Source of the DNA: Actinomycetes bacterium
GTDB lineage: Bacteria; Actinomycetota; Acidimicrobiia; Acidimicrobiales; RAAP-2
Assembly: GCA_021801235.1 (NCBI GenBank)
Contig: JAJYYG010000070.1
Location: 1-64,000 of the forward strand
Length of the DNA stretch: 64,000 nucleotides
Reading direction: 5' to 3'
Shown here: positions 14,853 to 30,913 of the stretch, piece by piece
Layout of the letters: each line of letters starts with the position of its first letter
Numbering within the stretch: position 1 is the first letter of the stretch
Position numbers and translations under genes: made by a program
The notes under the pieces: generated by a model
What the model saw: the letters and a program-made list of their open reading frames with translations, nothing else
What the model was told of the DNA's origin: nothing
Databases searched by the model: none

Positions 14853-16106
14853 TCAGAACCCGAAGAACCCGAAGAACCCGAGCAGCAGGTTGAAGAACCA
14901 GCTGATGAACCGCTGGAAGAAGCCACCACTGCCACTGCCACTGCCACCGCCACCGCCACCGCCACCGCCACCGTCGGAGGCCGGGGCGACCGGGGTCACC
15001 GAGTTGGAGGCGGTCGACGCCGGACCCGTGCCCACCGCGTTGATGGCGGCCACCGTGAACGAGTACGGGCTGCCGTTGGTGAGCCCGGTGACGGTGTCAC
15101 TGGTGACGTCGCCGACGGTGACCGGCGAGCCGGACGACGGCGTGATGACGTAGCCGATGACGGCCGAGCCCCCGTCGGAGGCCGGGGCGCTCCAGGTGAG
15201 GGTGGCCGAGGCGTTGCCGGCGGTGGCCACCACGTTGGTGGGGGCGCCGGGGACCGCCGTCGCCGCTGTGATGGTCGTCGTGGACAGCGGCGTCACCACC
15301 GCAGGCGGCAGCGGTTGACCGCTGGCCATCTGGGCTGAGGTCAGGACCGCGGCCGGCCAGGCGTAGATCGCCGAAGAGATGGCGAGCGGGGAGGTGACGT
15401 TGGCGGTGGTGTCGAACTCCGACACCGCAGGTTGGATGGTGGAGCCCACGGCACCGGTCGCCTTCAGGACGACGGTCGTGGTGGGAAACGTCACCGTGGC
15501 GCCGGCCGGGAACTCGTCAGCGGCGATCGCGCTCGCAGTCGTCCCGGACGGGACCCCCCCGGGCGTCGAGAGCTCGAGGTAGGGAAGCGTGGTGTTGCCG
15601 TTGAACGTGGCGCTTGCGCCTCCGCCGTTGGCGGTCGCCGTGCACCCTGCCTGTCCGGCGGCCGTGCACTCGGTGACCGTCAGCGGCAACGACCCGCTGG
15701 TGGACCCGGTGAACGTCGCCGGCCCCGAGACGGAGGCGGAGACGAAGGACGCGTTCTGGGGCAGGGGGATGATCGTGGTGATCCCCTGGATCGAACCCAC
15801 GGTGGCGGAGATCGAGCCGATGGCCTCGGTCGTCGGGACCACGGTGGGGGCGGGGGTGAAGGTCGACGTGTACTGCGAGCCCTGCGTGACCGACGCCGGC
15901 GCGCCGACGGAGATCGAGAGCGACTGCTGGCCGTAGCCGCCGAAGATCGGAACGTTGAAGACCACATTGAGATTGGTCGTCGCCGCCCCTGCCGGCGAAG
16001 CCACCATCGCTGCGGCGCCGGCAGCTGACGCTACAGCTGCACCGGCCAGTGCCAGTGAGGTTCCGAGGCGGCCGACCCGCCGCCAGAAGGTTCGTTCATT
16101 GCGCAT
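14853..16106 (-). CDS. Secreted surface protein with a fibronectin type III domain, Gly-rich linker and hydrophobic aromatic C-terminal tail
   Basis: Signal-like N-terminus (LGTSLALAGAAVASAAGAAAMVASPAGA); VPGAPTNVVATAGNASATLTWSAPASDGGSAVIGYVIT...YSFTVAAINAVGTGPAS (FnIII); ends GGGGGGGGGGSGSGSGGFFQRFISWFFNLLLGFFGFFGF. Confidence 0.85.
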   Translation of the reverse strand: MRNERTFWRRVGRLGTSLALAGAAVASAAGAAAMVASPAGAATTNLNVVFNVPIFGGYGQQSLSISVGAPASVTQGSQYTSTFTPAPTVVPTTEAIGSISATVGSIQGITTIIPLPQNASFVSASVSGPATFTGSTSGSLPLTVTECTAAGQAGCTATANGGGASATFNGNTTLPYLELSTPGGVPSGTTASAIAADEFPAGATVTFPTTTVVLKATGAVGSTIQPAVSEFDTTANVTSPLAISSAIYAWPAAVLTSAQMASGQPLPPAVVTPLSTTTITAATAVPGAPTNVVATAGNASATLTWSAPASDGGSAVIGYVITPSSGSPVTVGDVTSDTVTGLTNGSPYSFTVAAINAVGTGPASTASNSVTPVAPASDGGGGGGGGGGSGSGSGGFFQRFISWFFNLLLGFFGFFGF

Positions 16107-17652: not shown

Positions 17653-18201
17653 TCAGCCGTCTCCGGGGGCGCTCAACGCCCGGAGCCTCTCCACCCGCTC
17701 GTCGCGCTCACCGAGGTAGCGGACCAGCACGCCGATGGTCTGGTCCACGTTGAGCGCCCGCATCGCGATCATCTCCTCGAGATCGGCCCAGTCCTTCGTC
17801 CTGTTGAAGAACGCCTTGAAGACGGCCAGGTCGGAGCACCCGAGAAACGGGATCCGTCGGCCACCGAACTCGTGGCGCTGCCGGCGCTGTGCGGCCTCGA
17901 CGTGGAAGTCCGTCGTGTCCAAGAACACGTCGACGGGCGTCTGGCCCCAGCGCAGGCGGATCTGCCCGTCGCTCTCGAGCAGTCGGAGGTCGTCGGCGGT
18001 GTGGCCGACCTGGGCCGGTAGGGCGTCGAGCACCACACGGGCGTCGTCCCGCCCGACGAACACGTTGACGTCGATGTCGATCGTGCCCCTGGCCCGCTCG
18101 GTGCAGAAGGCGAGAGCGAGTGCCCCCCCGAAGGCGTACGGGAGCCGGCTGTCCTCGAGTGCGACGGCGAGGGCCAGGATCTTTTCAACGATCGATGTCA
18201 T
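17653..18201 (-). CDS. Nucleotidyltransferase-fold protein, putative toxin-like partner of an HTH protein
   Basis: YAFGGALALAFCTERARGTIDIDVNVFV (GG...DxD nucleotidyltransferase pattern); 4-nt overlap with the upstream HTH gene. Confidence 0.75.
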   Translation of the reverse strand: MTSIVEKILALAVALEDSRLPYAFGGALALAFCTERARGTIDIDVNVFVGRDDARVVLDALPAQVGHTADDLRLLESDGQIRLRWGQTPVDVFLDTTDFHVEAAQRRQRHEFGGRRIPFLGCSDLAVFKAFFNRTKDWADLEEMIAMRALNVDQTIGVLVRYLGERDERVERLRALSAPGDG

Positions 18202-18512
18202 GCGTGCCCGAAGCGGGGGAACTCGAGCTCAGGCGCGTGTCGTGCGGGGAACTGCTCCGCCAGCTCCAGGACGGCGACGAGCTCGTCACCGCGTGACAAC
18301 CCTTCGAACTCCCGCGGAGCCCGGAACAACGTCGCCTCCAGCGAACATCCCGCCGCCTCGACGATCCGTGAGAGCACGGCGGTGGTTGGTTCCACCCGGC
18401 CGTGCTCATACGCCGACAACGTGGCGTGGGAGGTCCCGGCCCGGCGTGCGAGGGTGCGGAGGCTCATCTGCGACCGCCCTCTCGCTGTCCGGATGATCAG
18501 TGCCGCATCCAT
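18198..18512 (-). CDS. XRE-family HTH protein, putative antitoxin/regulator
   Basis: IIRTARGRSQMSLRTLARRAGTSHATLSAYEHGRVEPTTAVLSRIVEAAG (HTH_3); upstream gene of a two-gene operon. Confidence 0.85.
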   Translation of the reverse strand: MDAALIIRTARGRSQMSLRTLARRAGTSHATLSAYEHGRVEPTTAVLSRIVEAAGCSLEATLFRAPREFEGLSRGDELVAVLELAEQFPARHAPELEFPRFGHA

Positions 18513-19550: not shown

Positions 19551-22139
19551 GTGATGACCACCCATGCCGACGGAGGGGAGCCGCGGTCCACGGCACGAAC
19601 GTCGGTGGCACATGGTCCGGCGTTCGGAGCCGACACCAGCACCCAGCGCGATGGCGGACACGGCCGCGGTGACCCCGGCGGCCAAGACGGCGACCGGCGG
19701 GCCCTGCTCCGGGCCGCGCTCGATGCCCCCGACCCTTACCCGGCGGACCGGTTCTCCGGGCGCGGCATCGTCATCTGCGCGGGTGGGGCACGCCTGCTGG
19801 CGGGCGCCTGGGTGACGATCAACGTCCTCCGCCGCATCCTCGGCTGCACCCTCCCCATCCAGGTGTGGCACCTGGGGGCGGCCGAGCTGGGTCCGTTCGA
19901 GCGGACCCTGTTCGAGGACTTGGGGGTCGAGGTCGTCGACGCGGAAGCGGTGCGCCGGGTCCACCCGGTCCGCATGCTCGGAGGCTGGGAGCTGAAGCCC
20001 TACGCGCTGGCGCACTGCCGGTTCGCCGAGGTGCTTCTCCTCGACGCCGACAACGTCCCCGCGACCGACCCGACTCCGCTCTTCGACGCCTGGCAGCTGG
20101 ACGAGGGAGGCGGTGCCGCCTTCTGGCCCGATGTCGAGCGTCTTTCGGAGGCCAGCCCGATCTGGGAGCAGGTCGGCATCCCCTACCGCCCCGTCGCCTC
20201 GTTCGAGACGGGCCAGGTCCTGCTGCGCAAGGCGGACGTATGGCACCCGCTGATGGTCACCGTGCACCTCAACGCCCACTCCGATCATTACTACCGGTAC
20301 CTCAACGGGGACAAGGACACCTTCCTCCTCGCGTGGCTGCTCACCGGCCGCCCCTGGGCCATGACCGGCACGCCTCCTCAGGTGCTCTCCCGGACGCTGT
20401 ACCAGCACGACTTCGAGGGGCAGGTGGTCTTCCAGCACCGGACCGGTGCCAAGTGGGTGTTGCGGGGCGACAACCTTGTCGAACCCGGGTTCGCCTACGA
20501 GGCCCAGTGCGTGACGTACCTGGGGGAGCTTCGCACCTTGTGGTCGGGGCGAATGGTCCGGATCCCGCAACGGACCCAGCCACTGCTGGACGCCGAGCGG
20601 GCGCTGACCACCACCCGGTGGTTCCACTACGAGCGCCTCGGCGCCGACACCCGGTTCCTCGAGCTCCGCGCCGGCAACCGGGTCGGTCAGGGCTTCAGCC
20701 CGGACGAACGGGCCTGGTACGTGGAGCGCCATCCTGGCAGGGACACCGGCCCTGACCCGGCCACCGAGGCCGGCACCGGCGATGCCGGCGGGGAACGGGC
20801 CGGGATCCGGCTCGTCCTGGCGGGCGACGACCACAGCACGTGCCGCCTGACGCTCGGCGACGACGGCACCTGGCGAGGGACCTGGGAGCACCCACCCCAC
20901 TTCGAGGTCGAGCTGACCCCCTCGCCCGACGCGATACCGGACACCGTCGACCCCGGTGCCGCCGGCACCGCCACACGCACCGCTGAAGTTCCCGGCGCCA
21001 CCGGCCCCATCCCCGGTGCTCCCGTCGAGACCCCGTCCCCGGCCAGTCTCGGTACCGACCAGGTCAGCGACCTGCTGGCGCACCTGTCGGCCGGCGGGCG
21101 CACCGCGCCCGAGCGTGACGCCATGGTCACCACCCTCGCCACCCTGGCTGACGCGTTCCCCGGGCTCGCCCCCCTGCTACGGGACGAGCTCGCCCGGTGG
21201 GAGGACCGTGGCGACGATCTGGTGTGCGGGACCATCCGTGCCGCACTGGACTTGGTAGAGCGGGTGGACGAAGACCCCGGGAGCCCGCGCCTGGATGGGC
21301 GGCGCAACCCGGGTGCACGGCCCGAGGGCTCCCGGCCGGAGTGGCGCTACGAGCCCCTCCCGCCATCGCCGCCGACGAGCGAGCCCCAGGTGCTGGTTCT
21401 CACCCCGATGAAGGATGCCGAACCCCACCTCGACCGCTACCTCGAACTGCTCGGCCGGCTCGACTACCCGCCCGAGTGCCTGTCACTGGGGATCCTCGAA
21501 GGTGACAGCATCGACGGCACCTGGGAGGCCCTGACCGACCGCCTCGGGGAACTGCGCCGGCATTACCACCGGGTGACGCTCCTGCGTCGGGACTTCGGGT
21601 TCCGGATCCCGCCCGGCGTCCCCCGCTGGTCGCACACGTACCAGCTGGCCCGCCGGACCATTCTCGCCCGGGCCCGGAACCACCTGCTCGTCGGCGCCCT
21701 GCAGGACGAGGACTGGGTCCTCTGGCTCGACGTGGACGTGAGCGACTACCCCCGGACGATCCTCGGGGACCTGCTCGCCGTCGATCGCGACATCGTCCAA
21801 CCCCATTGCGTCGTGGAGTACGGCGGTGACACGTTCGACTGGAACGCCTGGCGGGAGCACGGACGCGTGCGGATGGACCAGTTGCGGGGCGGAGCCGACC
21901 TGGTCCGCCTCGATGCCGTGGGGGGGACCATGCTCCTCGTCCGGGCGGACGCGCACCGGAACGGGCTCGTCTTCCCCCCCATGCTCTACGGCGCCGGGAG
22001 CCGGTGGGCACGCAACCCCCACCCCGTGTTCCGTGCACCCGGTGAGGTCGAGACGGAGGGCCTCGGGGTCATGGCCAAGGACATGGGCTACGAGTGCTGG
22101 GGCATGCCCAACCTCGAGATCGTCCACCTCAACCGGTGA
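19551..22139 (+). CDS. Two-domain glycosyltransferase: N-terminal GT71-like (Mnn-type) and C-terminal Anp1/GT62-like
   Basis: N-half: GIVICAGGARLLAGAWVTINVLRRILGCTLPIQVWHLG...GGWELKPYALAHCRFAEVLLLDADNVPATDPTPLFD...FETGQVLLRK; C-half: PQVLVLTPMKDAEPHLDRYLELLGRLDYPPECLSLGILEGDSIDGT...LARARNHLLVGAL..DWVLWLDVDVSDYP...DIVQPHCVVEYGG. Confidence 0.75.
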   Translation: MMTTHADGGEPRSTARTSVAHGPAFGADTSTQRDGGHGRGDPGGQDGDRRALLRAALDAPDPYPADRFSGRGIVICAGGARLLAGAWVTINVLRRILGCTLPIQVWHLGAAELGPFERTLFEDLGVEVVDAEAVRRVHPVRMLGGWELKPYALAHCRFAEVLLLDADNVPATDPTPLFDAWQLDEGGGAAFWPDVERLSEASPIWEQVGIPYRPVASFETGQVLLRKADVWHPLMVTVHLNAHSDHYYRYLNGDKDTFLLAWLLTGRPWAMTGTPPQVLSRTLYQHDFEGQVVFQHRTGAKWVLRGDNLVEPGFAYEAQCVTYLGELRTLWSGRMVRIPQRTQPLLDAERALTTTRWFHYERLGADTRFLELRAGNRVGQGFSPDERAWYVERHPGRDTGPDPATEAGTGDAGGERAGIRLVLAGDDHSTCRLTLGDDGTWRGTWEHPPHFEVELTPSPDAIPDTVDPGAAGTATRTAEVPGATGPIPGAPVETPSPASLGTDQVSDLLAHLSAGGRTAPERDAMVTTLATLADAFPGLAPLLRDELARWEDRGDDLVCGTIRAALDLVERVDEDPGSPRLDGRRNPGARPEGSRPEWRYEPLPPSPPTSEPQVLVLTPMKDAEPHLDRYLELLGRLDYPPECLSLGILEGDSIDGTWEALTDRLGELRRHYHRVTLLRRDFGFRIPPGVPRWSHTYQLARRTILARARNHLLVGALQDEDWVLWLDVDVSDYPRTILGDLLAVDRDIVQPHCVVEYGGDTFDWNAWREHGRVRMDQLRGGADLVRLDAVGGTMLLVRADAHRNGLVFPPMLYGAGSRWARNPHPVFRAPGEVETEGLGVMAKDMGYECWGMPNLEIVHLNR

Positions 22140-22179: not shown

Positions 22180-23580
22180 GTGACCGCCCCCCGCCTCCTC
22201 TTCCTCACCCCGGAACCGCCGTCGGCCACGGGCGGGGGACTGGCTATGCGGTCCGGGTCGACCCTCCGCGCCCTGGCCGGTGCCGGGTGGGACGTGCACG
22301 TGCTCGTCGTACCGGTCCACGGGGAGCGCTCCGGGGACGGCGGGTCCACCGTCGCCCGGTTCGCCGCCGCCTACGGCACGCTCGACCTCGACAGGCTGGC
22401 GCCGGGGAGCACGCGGCAGGCCGCGCTCGACACGCTGGGCGACCCGGACCTGCGCCGGTCGCTGGGTGCCACCTCCCCCCGCCCGGGACCGTGCCGCCGG
22501 CTCGGTGCAGGAGCCGTCCGGGCCGTGACCGATCTGGCGCTGGGAGCACCACCGGCGGTCGGCGACCGGTTCGACGCTCTTCACGTGTTGCGGTTGTACC
22601 TGGCGCCCGTACTCGACGCCCTGCTGGCGCGACCGGACCGCCCGGTGATCACCGTGGACGTGGACGAGGACGACGCCACCGTGGCTCGGGAGCTCGACGC
22701 GCTCGCGGGCGGCGGGGGCGACCTCACGCTCCCTGGACACCAGGATCTGGGCGCGGGGCCCGGCGACGCAGTGGGGGCCGGTGACGCAGGTGAAGCAGAC
22801 GTCGGGGGCGACGCTCCGGCCTACGAACGCCTGCAGCGTTGGTACCTTCCCAGAGTGGACCGGGTGGCGGTGGCCAGCGCCGGCGAGGCCAGGCGGCTCG
22901 AGGAACGTTGCGGCCTCCCATCCGGCTCGATCGTGGTGGTGCCGAACGAGGTGCCTCTCCGTTGCAGCTCCCCCGGCACCGAGGCACCGGGTCCCGGGGG
23001 GCACCCCGCGGTCGGATGCGGACCGGCCCCGGTCGTCACCGACCTGCTGCTGGTGGGGAACTTCTCCTGGCCTCCCAACGCCGATGCGGCGATGGTCCTG
23101 TGCGACCGGGTCCGGCCGGCACTGGCGGACACCCTGGGCCGTCCGGCGACCGTGGCGCTGGTCGGCAAGGATCCGCCGCCCGCGGTCCTTCGGTTGGGCG
23201 GGACCGCAGGAGTGAGGGTGACGGGATACGTGGACGACGTCGGGCCCTACTACGCTGCCGCTGGTGTGGCAGCAGTTCCCATGCGAGCCGGCGGCGGGTC
23301 CCGCATCAAGCTCCTCGAAGCCATGGACCTCGGTGTGCCGGTGGTGACGACCGATGCCGGCGCCGCCGGGCTCGACGCCATCTCCCAGCCACCGGTCGAG
23401 GTGGTCGGCTCGGTGGCCGGCTTCGCCGGCGCATGCCGCACCGCGCTGGTGGATCCCGCCTGGCGCGATCGCAGGATCCGCGACGCCAGGCGTTGGGTGC
23501 ACGACCACCACGGGCCCGTGCCGGTGGCCGGAGCGATGAATCAGCTCGTCGCCCCCCCGGAGCGAGGTGGGACGCGGTGA
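22180..23580 (+). CDS. GT4-type glycosyltransferase
   Basis: PRLLFLTPEPPSATGGGLAMRSGSTLRALAGAGWDVHVLVVP; DLLLVGNFSWPPNADAA; VPMRAGGGSRIKLLEAMDLGVPVVTTDAGAAGL. Confidence 0.88.
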   Translation: MTAPRLLFLTPEPPSATGGGLAMRSGSTLRALAGAGWDVHVLVVPVHGERSGDGGSTVARFAAAYGTLDLDRLAPGSTRQAALDTLGDPDLRRSLGATSPRPGPCRRLGAGAVRAVTDLALGAPPAVGDRFDALHVLRLYLAPVLDALLARPDRPVITVDVDEDDATVARELDALAGGGGDLTLPGHQDLGAGPGDAVGAGDAGEADVGGDAPAYERLQRWYLPRVDRVAVASAGEARRLEERCGLPSGSIVVVPNEVPLRCSSPGTEAPGPGGHPAVGCGPAPVVTDLLLVGNFSWPPNADAAMVLCDRVRPALADTLGRPATVALVGKDPPPAVLRLGGTAGVRVTGYVDDVGPYYAAAGVAAVPMRAGGGSRIKLLEAMDLGVPVVTTDAGAAGLDAISQPPVEVVGSVAGFAGACRTALVDPAWRDRRIRDARRWVHDHHGPVPVAGAMNQLVAPPERGGTR

Positions 23581-23900
23581 CCGCCGCCGCACCCAAGCGA
23601 CCCCGCCAGGTGCCCGATCTCGAGATCAGCCAGATCGTCGACGGCTACGTCGTCTACGACCCCGCCACCAACTGCGTCCACTACCTGAACCACACCGCCG
23701 CCGTGGTCCTCGAGCTATGCGACGGCGAACTGCCGGTCGACCGGATCGTCGATCTCGTCCGGAGTGCGTGGGACCTTCCCGCGCGGCCCGTCGACGAGGT
23801 CGAAGCGTGCGTGGCCCGGTTCGAGAAGGTGGGCCTGGTGGTCGACACCTCGGTGACCGCGAGCGCCGGCGGGGGTGAGCACCAGCCGGACGGCCGGTAG
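23577..23900 (+). CDS. PqqD-family protein (RRE-like fold)
   Basis: VPDLEISQIVDGYVVYDPATNCVHYLNHTAAVVLELCDGELPVDRIVDLVRSAW..PARPVDEVEACVARFEKVGLV; overlaps the upstream stop. Confidence 0.85.
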   Translation: MTAAAPKRPRQVPDLEISQIVDGYVVYDPATNCVHYLNHTAAVVLELCDGELPVDRIVDLVRSAWDLPARPVDEVEACVARFEKVGLVVDTSVTASAGGGEHQPDGR

Positions 23901-24829
23901 TGACGGGTGAGGAGGCGCCGGGTCCGGCCTCGATCGAGGTGCGGGTGCTCGGCGCGGCTTCCCGGGTGACCCTCGACCCACCGGCGGCCGGTGCCCTGGG
24001 ACCCACGCTCGGACTGGCCGCACACCACGCCCGCCAGCCCGACGCAGATCCCGAGTGGGTGGAGCTCCGGGCGCGGTCCGCCAGGCCCGGTGGCGGCGGG
24101 GCGGTCGTCCTTCCGTTGTTCGCGCTCGCAGGGGAGGAGGGCACGCCGCTCGCCACCGGCGATTCCATGACCCTCTTGCACGCACTCCTCGCGGACACCG
24201 AGGCCCGGGCCGCCGCCTTGGAGCGGTCCACGGCCACCCTCCGGGCCGGCTGCGTCCGCATCGGGGGCCGGCGCGTCGTCCTCACCGGCTGGGGGGCACC
24301 GGGGGTGACCACCGTGCTGCTCGCCCTCGGACGGCGCGGCCACGTGCTGGAGACCGACAGCCACCTGTTACTGGCGGGCGGTGGGGTCAGCGCGGTGGCC
24401 CGGCGGTTCCTGGTCCGGCGGCACGCCATCGAGGTGCTCGACTGGCTGGAGCCGGCACTGGCGTCGGTCCCATGGCTCGAGAACCGGTCCGGTGAGATCG
24501 TCCACGCTCTGGATCCGACCGAGCTCGGGATGGACTGGCACGCCGGACGGGGTCCTGTCGACACCGTCGTCGAGTTGGAGGGCAACCACGGTGGCTCCAA
24601 CCGGCTCCGCCCGGCGTCCGGACGGGAGACCGTGCGGGCCCTCGCCGAACGGGCCCGGGTGTCGACAAGTTCACCGGGCGCGTCTCCGACGCGGTGGCTC
24701 CGCGAGCTGTGCTCGGTGGTCGAACCGGCCCGTTGCCTGCGGCTCCGGGTGGGTGATCCCGACGGTGCCGCATCGCTGCTTGAGGAGGAGGTGTCCGGAC
24801 CGCAGCTGTTCTGGGGCAGTTCCGGATGA
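23900..24829 (+). CDS. HprK-like protein with degenerate P-loop
   Basis: CVRIGGRRVVLTGWGAPGVTTVLLALGRRGHVLETDSHLLLAGGG: HprK-like context but GWGAPGVTT replaces GxxGxGKS/T; adjacent to PqqD. Confidence 0.7.
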   Translation: MTGEEAPGPASIEVRVLGAASRVTLDPPAAGALGPTLGLAAHHARQPDADPEWVELRARSARPGGGGAVVLPLFALAGEEGTPLATGDSMTLLHALLADTEARAAALERSTATLRAGCVRIGGRRVVLTGWGAPGVTTVLLALGRRGHVLETDSHLLLAGGGVSAVARRFLVRRHAIEVLDWLEPALASVPWLENRSGEIVHALDPTELGMDWHAGRGPVDTVVELEGNHGGSNRLRPASGRETVRALAERARVSTSSPGASPTRWLRELCSVVEPARCLRLRVGDPDGAASLLEEEVSGPQLFWGSSG

Positions 24830-24898: not shown

Positions 24899-25174
24899 GT
24901 GTCCGACGACGAGCTCGACAGGGAAATTCTGAAACGAGTGCCGATGGACCGTAGGGCGTTCATCCGGCGCGCCGTGATCGGGGCGGCGTTTGCCGCTCCG
25001 GTGGTGGCGTCGTTCGCCGCAGGCGAGCTCGCCGGCGGCGACCGTGCATCCGCCACCTCGGAACCTGCGTTCGTGTCGAACCAGGAGATCCCTCCGGTCG
25101 ACATGCCCGTCCTCGGCCATCGGGGTTACGTGCCGTACGCGTACCACCCGTACCAGGTCGGGCTGGATGACTGA
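24899..25174 (+). CDS. 91-aa small protein with twin-arginine-like signal and Tyr/Pro/His-rich C-terminus; candidate precursor or exported peptide
   Basis: VPMDRRAFIRRAVIGAAFAAPVVASFAAGELAGG...IPPVDMPVLGHRGYVPYAYHPYQVGLDD; between the HprK-like and GT2 genes, overlapping the latter. Confidence 0.7.
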   Translation: MSDDELDREILKRVPMDRRAFIRRAVIGAAFAAPVVASFAAGELAGGDRASATSEPAFVSNQEIPPVDMPVLGHRGYVPYAYHPYQVGLDD

Positions 25175-26387
25175 ACCGGTCGGATCGGTACTGCTGAGCG
25201 CGGCGCTGATTGTCCGGGACGAGGCCGACCACCTGCGGGCCTGCCTCGACTCGCTTGACGGTCTGGTCGACGAGGTCGTCGTCGTCGACACCGGGTCGAC
25301 CGACGGATCGGCGACCATCGCCGCGTCCGCCGGCGCCCGGGTGGCCGAGCACCGCTGGCACGGCGACTTCTCCGCTGCCCGCAACGCCGCGCTCGACCTC
25401 TGCCGGGGCCGGTGGATCCTCTACGTCGACGCCGACGAGCGGGTGCGCGCCGGTACGGCTGCCGCCACGCGGGCGGTGCTCGAGACGAGCGACGCCCTCG
25501 GCCTGCTGGTCGAGTTCACCCCGGCGACCGGGTTCACCTGGTACCGGGAGTGCCGGCTGTTCCGCAACGATCCGGCCATCCGGTTCGAGCGCCCCATCCA
25601 CGAGCGCGTGGTGCCGGCCATCGAGCGTCTCGGGCGCGCCCGGTCGACCGGGGGCGCCACCGGACCGGGCAGCGTGCCGGGCACCGGCCTCACCGGCGGG
25701 GCGGTGTGGGGGCGGGTCCCCCTCCACCTCCACCATCTCGGCTACGACGACGACCGGCCGTCCCGGCACCGGCGGGACCTTCCGTTGCTCGAGGGCGAGC
25801 TGGCACGCCGGACCGGTGACGAGTCCACCTGGTACCGGCTGGGCGTGGCCCGGGCCGGGCTCGGCGACGACCGCGGTGCCGAAGAGGCATGGCGCGAGGG
25901 CGCCCGGGCGTCGGCGGCCGAGGGCGACACGCACCCGCTGGGCGGCATGAGCCTGGTCGAGCTGGTGCGGATCAGCGAGGAGCAGGGTGAGGATCCCGGC
26001 GACCTCCTGACCGGCGCGCTCGACCGGTTCCCGCGCAACCGTCTCCTGGTCTGGCACCAGGCCCGACGGCTGCTGGCAACCGGCGCTCCCCGAAGTGCGG
26101 CGGCGCTTTTCGCCGGCCTCGCCGCTACCGATCTGGAGGCGCTCGCCAACGAGGGACTCGCCTACGATGGCCGGCTGTTCGGGTCGTGGGCGCATGACGG
26201 CGCCGGTGCCGCGGCGTTCGCCCTTGGCAACTACGAGGCGGCCGCGGCTGAGTACGCCGCGGCGGAGGCGGCAGAGCCCGGGGTGCTCGGCTACCGGGTG
26301 AAGCGGGTGGCCGCGACCCGCCGGGCCGAGGGCGTCCGATCGTGCACGGAAGACGCAGCAACCGTTCCGACGAGGAGGGCAGGCTGA
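25167..26387 (+). CDS. GT2 glycosyltransferase with C-terminal TPR-like region (SunS-like architecture)
   Basis: LSAALIVRDEADHLRACLDSLDGLVDEVVVVDTGSTDGSATIAASAGA...HGDFSAARNAALDLCRGRWILYVDADERV; helical repeats follow. Confidence 0.88.
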   Translation: MTEPVGSVLLSAALIVRDEADHLRACLDSLDGLVDEVVVVDTGSTDGSATIAASAGARVAEHRWHGDFSAARNAALDLCRGRWILYVDADERVRAGTAAATRAVLETSDALGLLVEFTPATGFTWYRECRLFRNDPAIRFERPIHERVVPAIERLGRARSTGGATGPGSVPGTGLTGGAVWGRVPLHLHHLGYDDDRPSRHRRDLPLLEGELARRTGDESTWYRLGVARAGLGDDRGAEEAWREGARASAAEGDTHPLGGMSLVELVRISEEQGEDPGDLLTGALDRFPRNRLLVWHQARRLLATGAPRSAAALFAGLAATDLEALANEGLAYDGRLFGSWAHDGAGAAAFALGNYEAAAAEYAAAEAAEPGVLGYRVKRVAATRRAEGVRSCTEDAATVPTRRAG

Positions 26388-29300
26388 TGGGATCAGGTAC
26401 CGGACGCGTCCCGGAGGGCGGCGTCAGTCCGCCGTTCCTGCGCCGGGTGATGGTTGCCGCGGTGATCGGGTCGGTCGTCGGCGCCGCCGTCTTCGCCACC
26501 GTCTCCACCACGGCGCACGGCCCGGCGGCGACGGCACCCGGATCGGGCACGCCGCCGGGCGTGACCCACGCCACCACGACCAGTGTCACCACCCGCCTGG
26601 CCGCGCTCCCGCTGGCCTTCGCCCGGGGTACCACCCCGGCGCCCAGCTACGTGGCCGGAGCCCCCGGCACCGACGTGCAGGTCACGTCGGACCAGGTCGA
26701 CCTGACGATGGTCCGGGGATCCGGATCGGGCCCACGGGCGGTGGGAACCGCCTCCTCGGCGCCCACCCACGCCACCTCCTCCCGGATCGGCCTTGATCTG
26801 GTCGGGGCCGACCCGACGGCCCCGCTGTCCACCCAGGGCGCACTGCCCGGCCACGTCAACATGTTCGTGGGACCGCGCCAGTCGTGGCGGTCGGACCTCC
26901 CGACCTACCAGGCGGTCGTGGCCCACGACGCCTGGCCGGGCGTCGACGTGCGCTACGGCGGCAGGAGCGGCAGTCTCGAGTACACGCTGACGGTGGCTCC
27001 CGGCACCAACCCGTCGGTCGCCCGCCTGCGCCTTACCGGGGTTACCGGCCTGCACGTCGACAGCCGAGGCGACCTGGTGGGCCGGTCGGCAGCCGGGACC
27101 GTCTCCGAGCAGGCCCTGCGTGCTTGGCAGGTGATCGGTGGCCGCCGCCGTGCGGTGCCGGCCGCCTACCGTCTCCAGGGAACGACCGTCTCGTTCCAGG
27201 TGGGCTCCTACGACCGGAGCCGGCCCCTCGTCATCGACCCGACGGTGGTGACGGGCTACGCCACCTACCTGTCGGGCAGCCCGTTGTCCGAGGTCCTCGG
27301 CCTGGCCACCGACCAGGCCGGGAACACCTACGCCGTCGGGTTCACCGGAGGCACCGGGTTCCCGACCACCGGCTCGCCGGCCTACGGGGGCGGCCTCACC
27401 GACGCCTTCGTAACCGAGCTCAACCCGGCCGGGACCTCTGCCCTCTTCTCCACGTACCTCGGGGGCGTGGGCGAGGACGTGGCCACCGCCGTCGCCCTCG
27501 GGCCTTCGGGCTCCATCTACGTCGCCGGTTACACCGACTCCCCCGACTTCCCCATCGTCGGCGGCACGCGCAACACCAACGACAACAACACCATCTTCGG
27601 CGCCGAGAACGACGGCTTCCTCACCGTGCTGGCCACCGGCGGGGGCAGCATCAAAGCCTCCACCCTGATCGGCGGTTCAGGCGAGGACGAGATCGAGGCC
27701 CTCGCCGTCGACGCCGCCGGCAACGCCCACATCGCCGGGCTGACCACGTGGGACGACTTCCCCGGCCTGGGTGGCACGGCGGGCACGCTCCAAGACTTCG
27801 ACGAGGCGGAGCGCTACGTGAACGGCGGATACTCCAACCCGAACTCGGACGCCTTCGTGGCCACCGTGGACGACACCTCGGGCCAGCTCGTCCTCGGCCC
27901 GGTGACCTCCCTGGGCGTCGGGCAAGGCGCACAGGTCGACGCCCTCACCCTCGACAGTGCAGGCAATGCCTTCGTGGCCGGCGGGGACTCCAATCCTCTG
28001 GCGACGGTCGGGGGTGCGTATTCGGGCGAGGCCAGCTACACCGAACACGACGGCGGGTTCGTGGCCGAGGTGTCCCCCGCCGGCAGCGTCACCTGGCTGG
28101 CGTGGATGGGCTCGAACATGCAGCTCTACGGCATCGCCCTCGACGCGGCCGGCAACGTCGACGTGGTCGGGGCGGCGTACCCCGGCCTGGCCACCACCGC
28201 GGGCGTCGTCGACCCAACGGACCCCGGTGGCGGACCTCAGGCCATGGCCGCCTCGCTCTCCCCGAACGGTGCCACCCTCCGGTGGGCCACCTACCTTGGT
28301 GGCACCAATGGCACCTCCGAAGCCGACGCCGTCGCGGTGGCACCCGACGGCTCGCTCCTTGTGACCGGCGGTACGGCGTCCACCAGCGGCGTGGCCACCG
28401 CCGGGGCGCCGCAGGCCGCCTACGGCGGAGGAGCTTCCGACGCCTTCCTCGTCGACCTGGCCGCGGACGCCACCGCCGTCGACTGGGGAACCTACCTTGG
28501 CGGGCCCGGTGCGGATTGGGCCATGACGATGAGCCTCGTCCCCGGAGGGGTGGCCATCGGTGGCCTGGCCACGCCGCCGTCGTTCCCGGTCAGCGCCGGC
28601 AGCCTGCAGACGACACCCGCTGCCGCCGGCACCCAGGCCGGGTTCGTCGCCGACGTGCTGGTGGTGCCGACGGTGACCGCGGTGTCGCCGGCCTTCGGGT
28701 CGGTCGCCGGTGGCACCACCGTGACCGTGACCGGGACCGGGTTCACCGGTGCCACCGCCGTTCACGTGGGTGCGACCGCCGCTTCCTTCACGGTGGTGTC
28801 GGACTCGCAGCTGACCGTCATCACTCCCTCCGGGACACCCGGAACCGTGCACGTGACCGTCACCGGGCCCGGCGGCACCAGCGCCGCCACCACCGCGGAC
28901 CTCTTCGACTACCAGGCCACCCAGGCCGCCCTCACCATCACCTCCACCGCCGTCACCTACGGCCACGCCCTCACCCTCGCCACCTCGGGTGGCACGACGG
29001 GTGGGGCGGTCACCTACCAGGTGCCCTCGGCCGGCACCGCCGGCTGTGCCGTAAGCGGTGCGAGCCTCACCGCCACCAGTGCCGGCACCTGCACGGTCAC
29101 CGCCACCATGGCCGGCGATACCGACTACCAGGCAGTGTCGTCGGCGCCCACCGTCATCACGGTCAGCGACGGCAGTTATCTGCTGGTGGCCCCCGACGGC
29201 GGCGTGTTCGCCTTCGGGGGTGCCCGCTTCGCGGGTTCGTGCCCGGCGACGGGCTCGGTGTGCGCCGGGGTCTCCGACATCGTCGGCGCTGCGGCCACCC

Positions 29301-29962
29301 CCGACGGCAAGGGCTACTGGCTGGTCGGGGCGGACGGCTCTGTCTACCCGTTCGGCGCTGCTGTCTCCTACGGATCGATGCGGGGCACCCACCTGAGGGA
29401 GCCGGTGGTGGGCATCGCAGCCACCCCCGACGGCAAGGGCTACTGGCTGGTCGCCTCCGACGGCGGTGTGTTCGCCTTCGGCGACGCCACCTTCGCCGGA
29501 TCGATGGGCGGCACCCACCTGAGGGAGCCGGTGGTAGGTATGGCGGCCACCCCCGACGGCAAGGGCTACTGGCTGGTCGCCGCCGACGGCGGCGTGTTCG
29601 CCTTCGGAAGTGCCCGCTTCACCGGCTCGTGCCCGGTGCCCGGCTCGGTGTGCGCCGGGGTCACCGACATCGTCGGCGCCGCGGCCACCCCCGACGGCAA
29701 GGGCTACTGGCTGGTGGGGGCGGACGGCTCTGTCTACCCGTTCGGCACCGCTGTCTCCTACGGGTCGATGCGCGGCACCCACCTGAACAAGCCGGTGGTG
29801 GGCATGGCGGCCACCATCGACGGCAAGGGCTACTGGCTGGCCGGCGCCGACGGCGGCGTGTTCGCCTTCGGCGATGCCACCTTCGCCGGATCGATGGGCG
29901 GCATCCGCCTGGACGCGCCGGTGGTGGGCCTAGCCACACCAGCCGTCCGGCCCCCCGGCTGA
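26387..29962 (+). CDS. Very large secreted/anchored SBBP beta-propeller protein with IPT/TIG domain and C-terminal GYWLV-DGGVFAFGDA repeats
   Basis: N-terminal TM; NMFVGPRQSWRSDLPTYQAVVAHDAWPGVDVRYGGRSGSLEYTLTVAPG; repeated GNTYAVGFTGGTGFPTT / GSIYVAGYTDSPDFP (SBBP); VTAVSPAFGSVAGGTTVTVTGTGFTGATAVHVG (IPT); C-terminal GKGYWLV..DGGVFAFG repeats. ATG overlaps the upstream stop. Confidence 0.88.
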   Translation: MGSGTGRVPEGGVSPPFLRRVMVAAVIGSVVGAAVFATVSTTAHGPAATAPGSGTPPGVTHATTTSVTTRLAALPLAFARGTTPAPSYVAGAPGTDVQVTSDQVDLTMVRGSGSGPRAVGTASSAPTHATSSRIGLDLVGADPTAPLSTQGALPGHVNMFVGPRQSWRSDLPTYQAVVAHDAWPGVDVRYGGRSGSLEYTLTVAPGTNPSVARLRLTGVTGLHVDSRGDLVGRSAAGTVSEQALRAWQVIGGRRRAVPAAYRLQGTTVSFQVGSYDRSRPLVIDPTVVTGYATYLSGSPLSEVLGLATDQAGNTYAVGFTGGTGFPTTGSPAYGGGLTDAFVTELNPAGTSALFSTYLGGVGEDVATAVALGPSGSIYVAGYTDSPDFPIVGGTRNTNDNNTIFGAENDGFLTVLATGGGSIKASTLIGGSGEDEIEALAVDAAGNAHIAGLTTWDDFPGLGGTAGTLQDFDEAERYVNGGYSNPNSDAFVATVDDTSGQLVLGPVTSLGVGQGAQVDALTLDSAGNAFVAGGDSNPLATVGGAYSGEASYTEHDGGFVAEVSPAGSVTWLAWMGSNMQLYGIALDAAGNVDVVGAAYPGLATTAGVVDPTDPGGGPQAMAASLSPNGATLRWATYLGGTNGTSEADAVAVAPDGSLLVTGGTASTSGVATAGAPQAAYGGGASDAFLVDLAADATAVDWGTYLGGPGADWAMTMSLVPGGVAIGGLATPPSFPVSAGSLQTTPAAAGTQAGFVADVLVVPTVTAVSPAFGSVAGGTTVTVTGTGFTGATAVHVGATAASFTVVSDSQLTVITPSGTPGTVHVTVTGPGGTSAATTADLFDYQATQAALTITSTAVTYGHALTLATSGGTTGGAVTYQVPSAGTAGCAVSGASLTATSAGTCTVTATMAGDTDYQAVSSAPTVITVSDGSYLLVAPDGGVFAFGGARFAGSCPATGSVCAGVSDIVGAAATPDGKGYWLVGADGSVYPFGAAVSYGSMRGTHLREPVVGIAATPDGKGYWLVASDGGVFAFGDATFAGSMGGTHLREPVVGMAATPDGKGYWLVAADGGVFAFGSARFTGSCPVPGSVCAGVTDIVGAAATPDGKGYWLVGADGSVYPFGTAVSYGSMRGTHLNKPVVGMAATIDGKGYWLAGADGGVFAFGDATFAGSMGGIRLDAPVVGLATPAVRPPG

Positions 29963-29980: not shown

Positions 29981-30913
29981 GTGCCGCCACCCGACCGCAC
30001 CGGCCCGCTGCGATCGGGCGGCGCCGTGGCCGCGGTACGGAGCGGGCCGGCAACGGTCGCCGCCGCGGTGCCCATCCGTCCGTCCGACCGGACCGGTGAG
30101 CCGTTCCTCGAACCCGTCGTCGACGTCGCCACCCACGTGGGACCGCTCCTGCTCCCAGCCGGGGACCAGGTCATCACCCGCGTGCTGCAGAACGGGGGCG
30201 TGTGGGAGACCCAGGAGACCGCCTACCTGATCATGACGCTCCTGCCCGGCCAGACGTTCGTGGACATCGGAGCCCATGTCGGCTACTTCAGCGTCCTCGC
30301 CTCCAAACGGGTCGGCCCCACGGGAACGGTCATCGCCTTCGAGCCCGAGGCCCGCAACCTCGACCTGTTGGAGCGGAACCTCTGGCGCAACGGGTGCGGC
30401 AACGCGGTGGTGGTGCCACACGCGTGCTCCGACCGCTCGGAGGCACTGTCCCTCGTCCTCGACGAGGAGAACCGGGGCGCACACTATCTGGTGCCGCCGG
30501 GACACGGGGACGTCGCCGTGTCGTGCGTCCGGCCCGACCAGGTCCTCCCCGACGCGGTCGACGTGGTCAAGATCGACGCCCAGGGCTACGACCACGAGGT
30601 GGTCTCCGGACTGAGCCGGACGTGGACCGCCTGTCCGGACCTGGTCATCATGGTCGAGCTGTCCTACGGAGAGCTCGATCGGCGGGGCATCGAACCGGTG
30701 GTCGTGCTCGGCGGTTACGAGGAGATGGGGTTCGAGCTGGCAATGTTCGACGCCGGCGGCCACCTGCCGGTCATGCCGGCCGAGGCCATCGACGCCGTGT
30801 GCCGCACCCTCCAGCAGGCGGATATCACCGTCGTCCTCCACCGCAAAGACGGCGCGGTCCGAGGCGAGCGCGAGGTCGAACAGGCGCTGCCGCCTTTCGG
30901 CGGCACCCGATGA
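29981..30913 (+). CDS. FkbM-family methyltransferase
   Basis: QTFVDIGAHVGYFSVLASKRVGPTGTVIAFEPEARNLDLLERNL...VDVVKIDAQGYDHEVVSGL. Confidence 0.9.
   Translation: MPPPDRTGPLRSGGAVAAVRSGPATVAAAVPIRPSDRTGEPFLEPVVDVATHVGPLLLPAGDQVITRVLQNGGVWETQETAYLIMTLLPGQTFVDIGAHVGYFSVLASKRVGPTGTVIAFEPEARNLDLLERNLWRNGCGNAVVVPHACSDRSEALSLVLDEENRGAHYLVPPGHGDVAVSCVRPDQVLPDAVDVVKIDAQGYDHEVVSGLSRTWTACPDLVIMVELSYGELDRRGIEPVVVLGGYEEMGFELAMFDAGGHLPVMPAEAIDAVCRTLQQADITVVLHRKDGAVRGEREVEQALPPFGGTR

Follow-up and report, generated by a model that had tools for sequence, protein, structure and literature searches.

A bacterial GT71-GT62 fusion glycosyltransferase encoded in an operon with a PqqD-like protein and a candidate leader peptide

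The fusion gene and its operon

The window, a stretch of 64,000 nucleotides from a metagenome-assembled genome (MAG) of the order Acidimicrobiales (contig JAJYYG010000070.1), contains a gene for a glycosyltransferase in which a GT71 domain is followed by a GT62 domain (Table 1). Its open reading frame (19551-22139, forward strand) is uninterrupted, and the ATG at 19554 is the start conserved among relatives, which gives a protein of 861 residues. Downstream and in the same direction lie genes for a GT4 glycosyltransferase, a PqqD-like protein, an HprK-like protein, a 91-residue peptide, a GT2-TPR glycosyltransferase, a DUF7948/SBBP protein and an FkbM-type methyltransferase. This gene order is kept in two other actinobacterial MAGs, L005 and L006 (three MAGs in all). 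The peptide gene was found by inspecting the gap between the HprK-like and GT2-TPR genes in three frames.

Table 1. Positions in the window of the fusion gene, its domains and the operon genes
Feature	Position	Strand	Remarks
GT71-GT62 fusion glycosyltransferase	19554..22139	+	861 aa, without membrane anchor
GT71 domain (Mannosyl_trans3, PF11051)	19761..20396	+	residues 70-281; DAD motif D164-D166
Accessory beta-domain after GT71	20616..20921	+	about residues 355-456
Helical segment	21054..21263	+	about residues 501-570
GT62 domain (Anp1, PF03452)	21378..22130	+	residues 609-859; DVD motif D726-D728
GT4 glycosyltransferase (start uncertain)	22180..23580	+	profile matches
PqqD-like protein (RiPP recognition element fold)	23577..23900	+	PF05402, E 8.8e-8
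HprK-like protein	23900..24829	+	Walker A lysine lost (GWGAPGVTT) in window clade
Gene for the 91-aa leader peptide, a candidate precursor or substrate of glycosylation	24899..25174	+	absent from ORF list
GT2-TPR glycosyltransferase, distant SunS relative	25167..26387	+	profile matches
Secreted DUF7948/SBBP beta-propeller protein with TIG domain	26387..29962	+	alternative candidate glycosylation target
FkbM-type methyltransferase	29981..30913	+	follows the beta-propeller gene

Several of the operon proteins are distant members of their families. The best NCBIfam match of the GT2-TPR protein is SunS (TIGR04195), at 46.2 bits against a cut-off of 350, and the HprK-like protein scores 12.1 against the HprK-related kinase A model (TIGR04352), whose cut-off is 200. 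The altered Walker A motif of the HprK-like proteins in the window clade, where relatives in two other genomes (G516 and G038) retain GKTT, suggests that this protein may be without kinase activity. A copy of the window's HprK-like gene that is 100% identical occurs on a small contig of another genome (L026, G036:C86:164-1090), which also has an HprK-like copy of its own at 77%; cross-contamination between MAGs is possible.

Two glycosyltransferase domains in one protein

The sequence-only reading had assigned the N-terminal half to GT71 and the C-terminal half to GT62, and both assignments held in profile searches. The GT71 half matches PF11051 with 81 bits against a Pfam cut-off of 22 (E 1.3e-22). 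A 16-sequence alignment used as a profile against the PDB recovered the alpha-1,3-mannosyltransferase MNT2 of yeast (7xjv; E 2.7e-9) and no other significant match. A structure model of this half built from 16 sequences (pLDDT 74, pTM 0.67) likewise has MNT2 as its best PDB match, with a Foldseek E-value of 4e-12 against 3e-8 for the runner-up, a lead of about four orders of magnitude. The TM-score is about 0.4 by query length, so this is a match of fold family and not a close superposition. Full-length AlphaFold2 prediction with 3 close sequences gave a mean pLDDT of only 34, and our structural claims therefore rest on the 16-sequence model of the half. The model predicts a GT-A fold like that of MNT2 carrying a DxD motif, and the DAD motif is invariant in the GT71 alignment.

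The closest sequences found to the GT71 half lie in IMG/VR viral contigs (32-45% identity), and several of these were confirmed as PF11051. No match to the window protein was found in phages and none to its GT71 half in plasmids; a viral-contig GT71 relative used as query also found no match in phages or plasmids. In some viral contigs (L085-L090) the GT71 protein is fused to a methyltransferase domain. With the yeast GT71 enzymes MNT2, Mnn1, Mnn2 and Mnn5, the window domain shares the Pfam domain, an MNT2-like predicted structure and the DAD motif; it differs from them in lacking a membrane anchor and in having a small beta-domain behind it.

The GT62 half matches PF03452 at residues 610-859 (151 bits, cut-off 28.8; E 5.8e-44), and the match to the yeast enzymes Mnn9, Van1 and Anp1 spans nearly the entire length of the domain. 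Mnn9 (3zf8) is recovered with the single sequence as query (E 5e-14) and with a profile of 8 bacterial GT62 domains searched against the PDB (E 8.6e-35). Seven Mnn9 residues are kept: R209, R210, D236, D238, D280, T365 and H389 correspond to R700, R701, D726, D728, D762, T834 and H858 of the window protein. Mutation of R209, D236, D280 or H389 abolishes Mnn9 activity (PMC3787745), and these four are invariant in all 8 bacterial GT62 domains compared. A DxD motif is thus present in each half.

Mnn9 requires Mn2+ and GDP-mannose, and by analogy the GT62 half plausibly transfers mannose from GDP-mannose in the same manner; that the GT71 half is a mannosyltransferase is plausible on similar grounds. 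Since the catalytic residues are conserved in both halves, the earlier proposal of a bifunctional enzyme is well supported at the level of sequence, with both active sites predicted to be intact. It is very improbable that one domain is catalytically dead and supports the other allosterically or as a scaffold, in the way that Van1 activity depends on the Mnn9 protein even when Mnn9 is inactive (PMC3787745), because the DxD motifs and other essential residues of the fusion are intact and strongly constrained.

The region between the domains, previously taken for a linker of about 200 residues, is in fact about 320 residues long and holds the beta-domain and the helical segment between low-complexity stretches. 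The accessory beta-domain also stands behind GT71 in a viral contig (L070). No transmembrane-like segment was found in the fusion, whose hydropathy maximum of 1.66 falls within the first core beta-strand, and the protein is probably cytosolic.

Full-length orthologues occur in L005 and L006, at 84% and 78% identity, and are fused in both. Two genes joined by a sequencing error or assembly artefact are therefore ruled out, and the single fused frame first proposed from the sequence stands. Among the fusion orthologues, dN/dS is 0.15-0.16 for the GT71 part and 0.18-0.29 for the GT62 part and exceeds both across most of the inter-domain region; both halves are under purifying selection. The fusion is rare and patchy in its distribution: PF03452 exceeded its cut-off in 3 of the 398 sampled genomes of the phylum, PF11051 was found in the window's own genome only among 298 sampled genomes, and the fusion is missing from four further genomes in the genus. 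A GT71 profile run on 296 genomes of the class also matched the window's own genome only, in a sample that evidently left out the two orthologue-bearing genomes.

In yeast, PF11051/GT71 comprises Mnn1, Mnn2 and Mnn5, and PF03452/GT62 comprises Mnn9, Van1 and Anp1 (PMC5225481). The bacterial GT62 domains appear from their sequences to form a set of their own, with 43-61% identity to the window's domain among the more distant ones and 25-31% to Mnn9; the window domain is itself about 31% identical to Mnn9. No GT62 relatives were found in viral contigs. While the membership of yeast-type families noted earlier is borne out, the special link to yeast that it implied is weak, because the bacterial GT62 domains stand apart and GT71 relatives occur in viral contigs; neither family is restricted to fungi. 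Recent acquisition from a fungus finds no support in the identity levels. The fungal mannan polymerase enzymes have a type II Golgi membrane anchor, which is missing from the window fusion, and unlike the yeast GT62 enzymes its GT62 domain is bacterial and fused to GT71.

Other bacterial GT62 domains also form the C-terminus of proteins with several glycosyltransferase modules, as GT32-GT2-GT62 in Azospirillum and GT32-GT62 in Gemmobacter, both on plasmids, and as GT4-like-GT62 in one genome of our set (G173). Joining GT62 to a second glycosyltransferase is thus a recurring design. The partners in those proteins are GT32, GT2 or GT4, in contrast to GT71 in the window, and GT71 as a partner is the new element among the fusions seen. 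No bacterial GT71-GT62 fusion was described in the open-licence literature searched, and the pairing is a new combination of already known kinds of enzyme. The literature treats GT71 and GT62 almost wholly as enzymes of mannan synthesis in fungi. A soluble bacterial protein with both domains and with the catalytic residues kept offers a tractable way to study their specificity without the Golgi.

A leader-peptide family linked to PqqD and glycosyltransferases

The dN/dS of the 91-residue peptide gene is about 0.1-0.16, which argues that the peptide is very probably translated and under constraint. A leader model was built from the first 53 residues of four peptides (those of the three MAGs and of G173) and used to search 199 genomes from the order. 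With the window's own genome excluded, all six loci at E <= 8.4e-6 have a homologue of PqqD, HprK, GT2 or GT4 within 1.5 kb, and none of the next 23 loci (E 9.1e-6 to 0.037) has such neighbors. As G173 supplied a seed sequence, five of the six loci are independent of the model. In wider neighborhoods, a leader peptide occurs with PqqD and/or GT2-TPR in G503, G516, G528, G040, G038 and G173, and in G151, where a contig end intervenes, the leader gene adjoins GT2-TPR and PqqD genes. Matches to the HprK-like protein in G516 and G038, obtained with a separate query, adjoin the leader-peptide matches. GT4-PqqD fusions and GT2-TPR genes adjoin leader peptides in several genomes (L062-L067), one of which (L066) additionally has sulfotransferase-like and GT61-like genes, recognized by eye only.

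The leaders share the pattern (D/S)RRxF(I/L)...A.P(V/I)(V/I)xSF, and their tails vary, often as Gly/Asn/Thr-rich repeats. The leader of the window peptide contains a DELDREILKRVP..RRAFIRR region, and on visual inspection the leader resembles a twin-arginine signal; a TatC gene is present in the window's genome. The core of the window peptide has few Ser/Thr residues, no Asn sequon and no Cys. Asn-glycosylation of the cores was considered and dropped, because N-x-S/T sequons are enriched in only 2 of 8 cores and missing from the window's.

Two marks of a RiPP cluster are found at these loci, namely an RRE/PqqD protein and a precursor with a conserved leader that is linked to the RRE across genomes. 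An earlier study (PMC7470986) put forward RRE-glycosyltransferase fusions as potentially new clusters of the RiPP type. With PqqD/HprK-type RiPP systems and the glycocins of the SunS family, the window operon shares a leader peptide, PqqD-like and HprK-like proteins and a GT2 enzyme whose best match is SunS. It differs from these systems in its several extra glycosyltransferases, in the degraded P-loop of the clade's HprK-like protein, in the low SunS score of its GT2 enzyme (46 bits against 350) and in a peptide without Cys; in addition, no dedicated ABC/peptidase exporter was seen. The literature search, limited to open-licence sources, found no description of the leader-peptide family. The family is apparently undescribed and, within this order, associated with PqqD and glycosyltransferases; it offers a starting point for direct tests of peptide glycosylation in bacteria.

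Possible role of the fusion

We favor, at a probability of roughly 0.5, the reading that the fusion is a cytosolic two-module glycosyltransferase which carries out elongation in an operon for glycosylating a peptide or protein. We infer the sugar, the order of action, the acceptor and the route of export as follows. The PqqD-like protein would bind the leader of the 91-residue peptide, and the GT2-TPR enzyme would attach the first sugar. The GT4 enzyme and the fusion would then extend the glycan and introduce branches; the sugar added is probably mannose, donated by GDP-mannose, and the product would be exported via the Tat or the Sec route. The sequence-only reading had envisaged a short mannan-like chain on a surface target. 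Such a chain is plausible by analogy, because both of the closest solved enzymes, MNT2 and Mnn9, are mannosyltransferases that use GDP-mannose, while the sugar and linkage themselves lie beyond what sequence can tell. The target is narrowed by the operon, with its PqqD-like protein, leader peptide, SunS-like GT2-TPR enzyme and secreted beta-propeller protein. Most genomes with the leader-peptide cassette have neither GT62 nor GT71, which makes the fusion an optional addition that could have a different target. More tentatively, the cassettes may represent a new, PqqD-guided, glyco-RiPP-like class of this order for glycosylating small secreted leader peptides, in which one clade recruited the fusion for a cytosolic mannan-like oligosaccharide.

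The fusion might instead be an ordinary bifunctional enzyme of a surface glycan or exopolysaccharide, with the peptide and PqqD genes as unrelated neighbors, which we consider rather unlikely. The GT62 fusions of Azospirillum and Gemmobacter, with GT32 or GT2 partners, lie near other glycosyltransferase genes whose annotation includes no PqqD or leader peptides, and the GT4 neighbor in the window resembles the PEP-CTERM/XrtA exopolysaccharide glycosyltransferases (TIGR03087, 94.8 bits, under its cut-off). However, no polymerase, flippase or priming gene is among the operon genes scanned, and the peptide, PqqD and GT2-TPR genes remain linked in genomes without the fusion.

A less probable acceptor than the small peptide is the large DUF7948/SBBP beta-propeller protein, which would be glycosylated in the cytosol ahead of its export. 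Its conserved gene comes directly after the GT2 gene in all three MAGs, and the protein has 19% Ser+Thr and a strong hydrophobic segment at its N-terminus. We regard this as unlikely, as the gene was not seen adjoining the cassette outside the window clade and such an acceptor leaves no role for either the small peptide or the PqqD-like protein.

As a check on GDP-mannose supply, a ManC beta-helix HMM was searched against the window's genome and found nothing, a result that says little because this HMM gives no match in the Corynebacterium glutamicum control either. Elsewhere in the window, on the reverse strand, an HTH protein and a DUF6036-like nucleotidyltransferase (17653-18512) resemble a pair of the toxin-antitoxin type, and a gene at 14853-16106 encodes a secreted fn3 protein with a poly-Gly stretch and a hydrophobic C-terminus.
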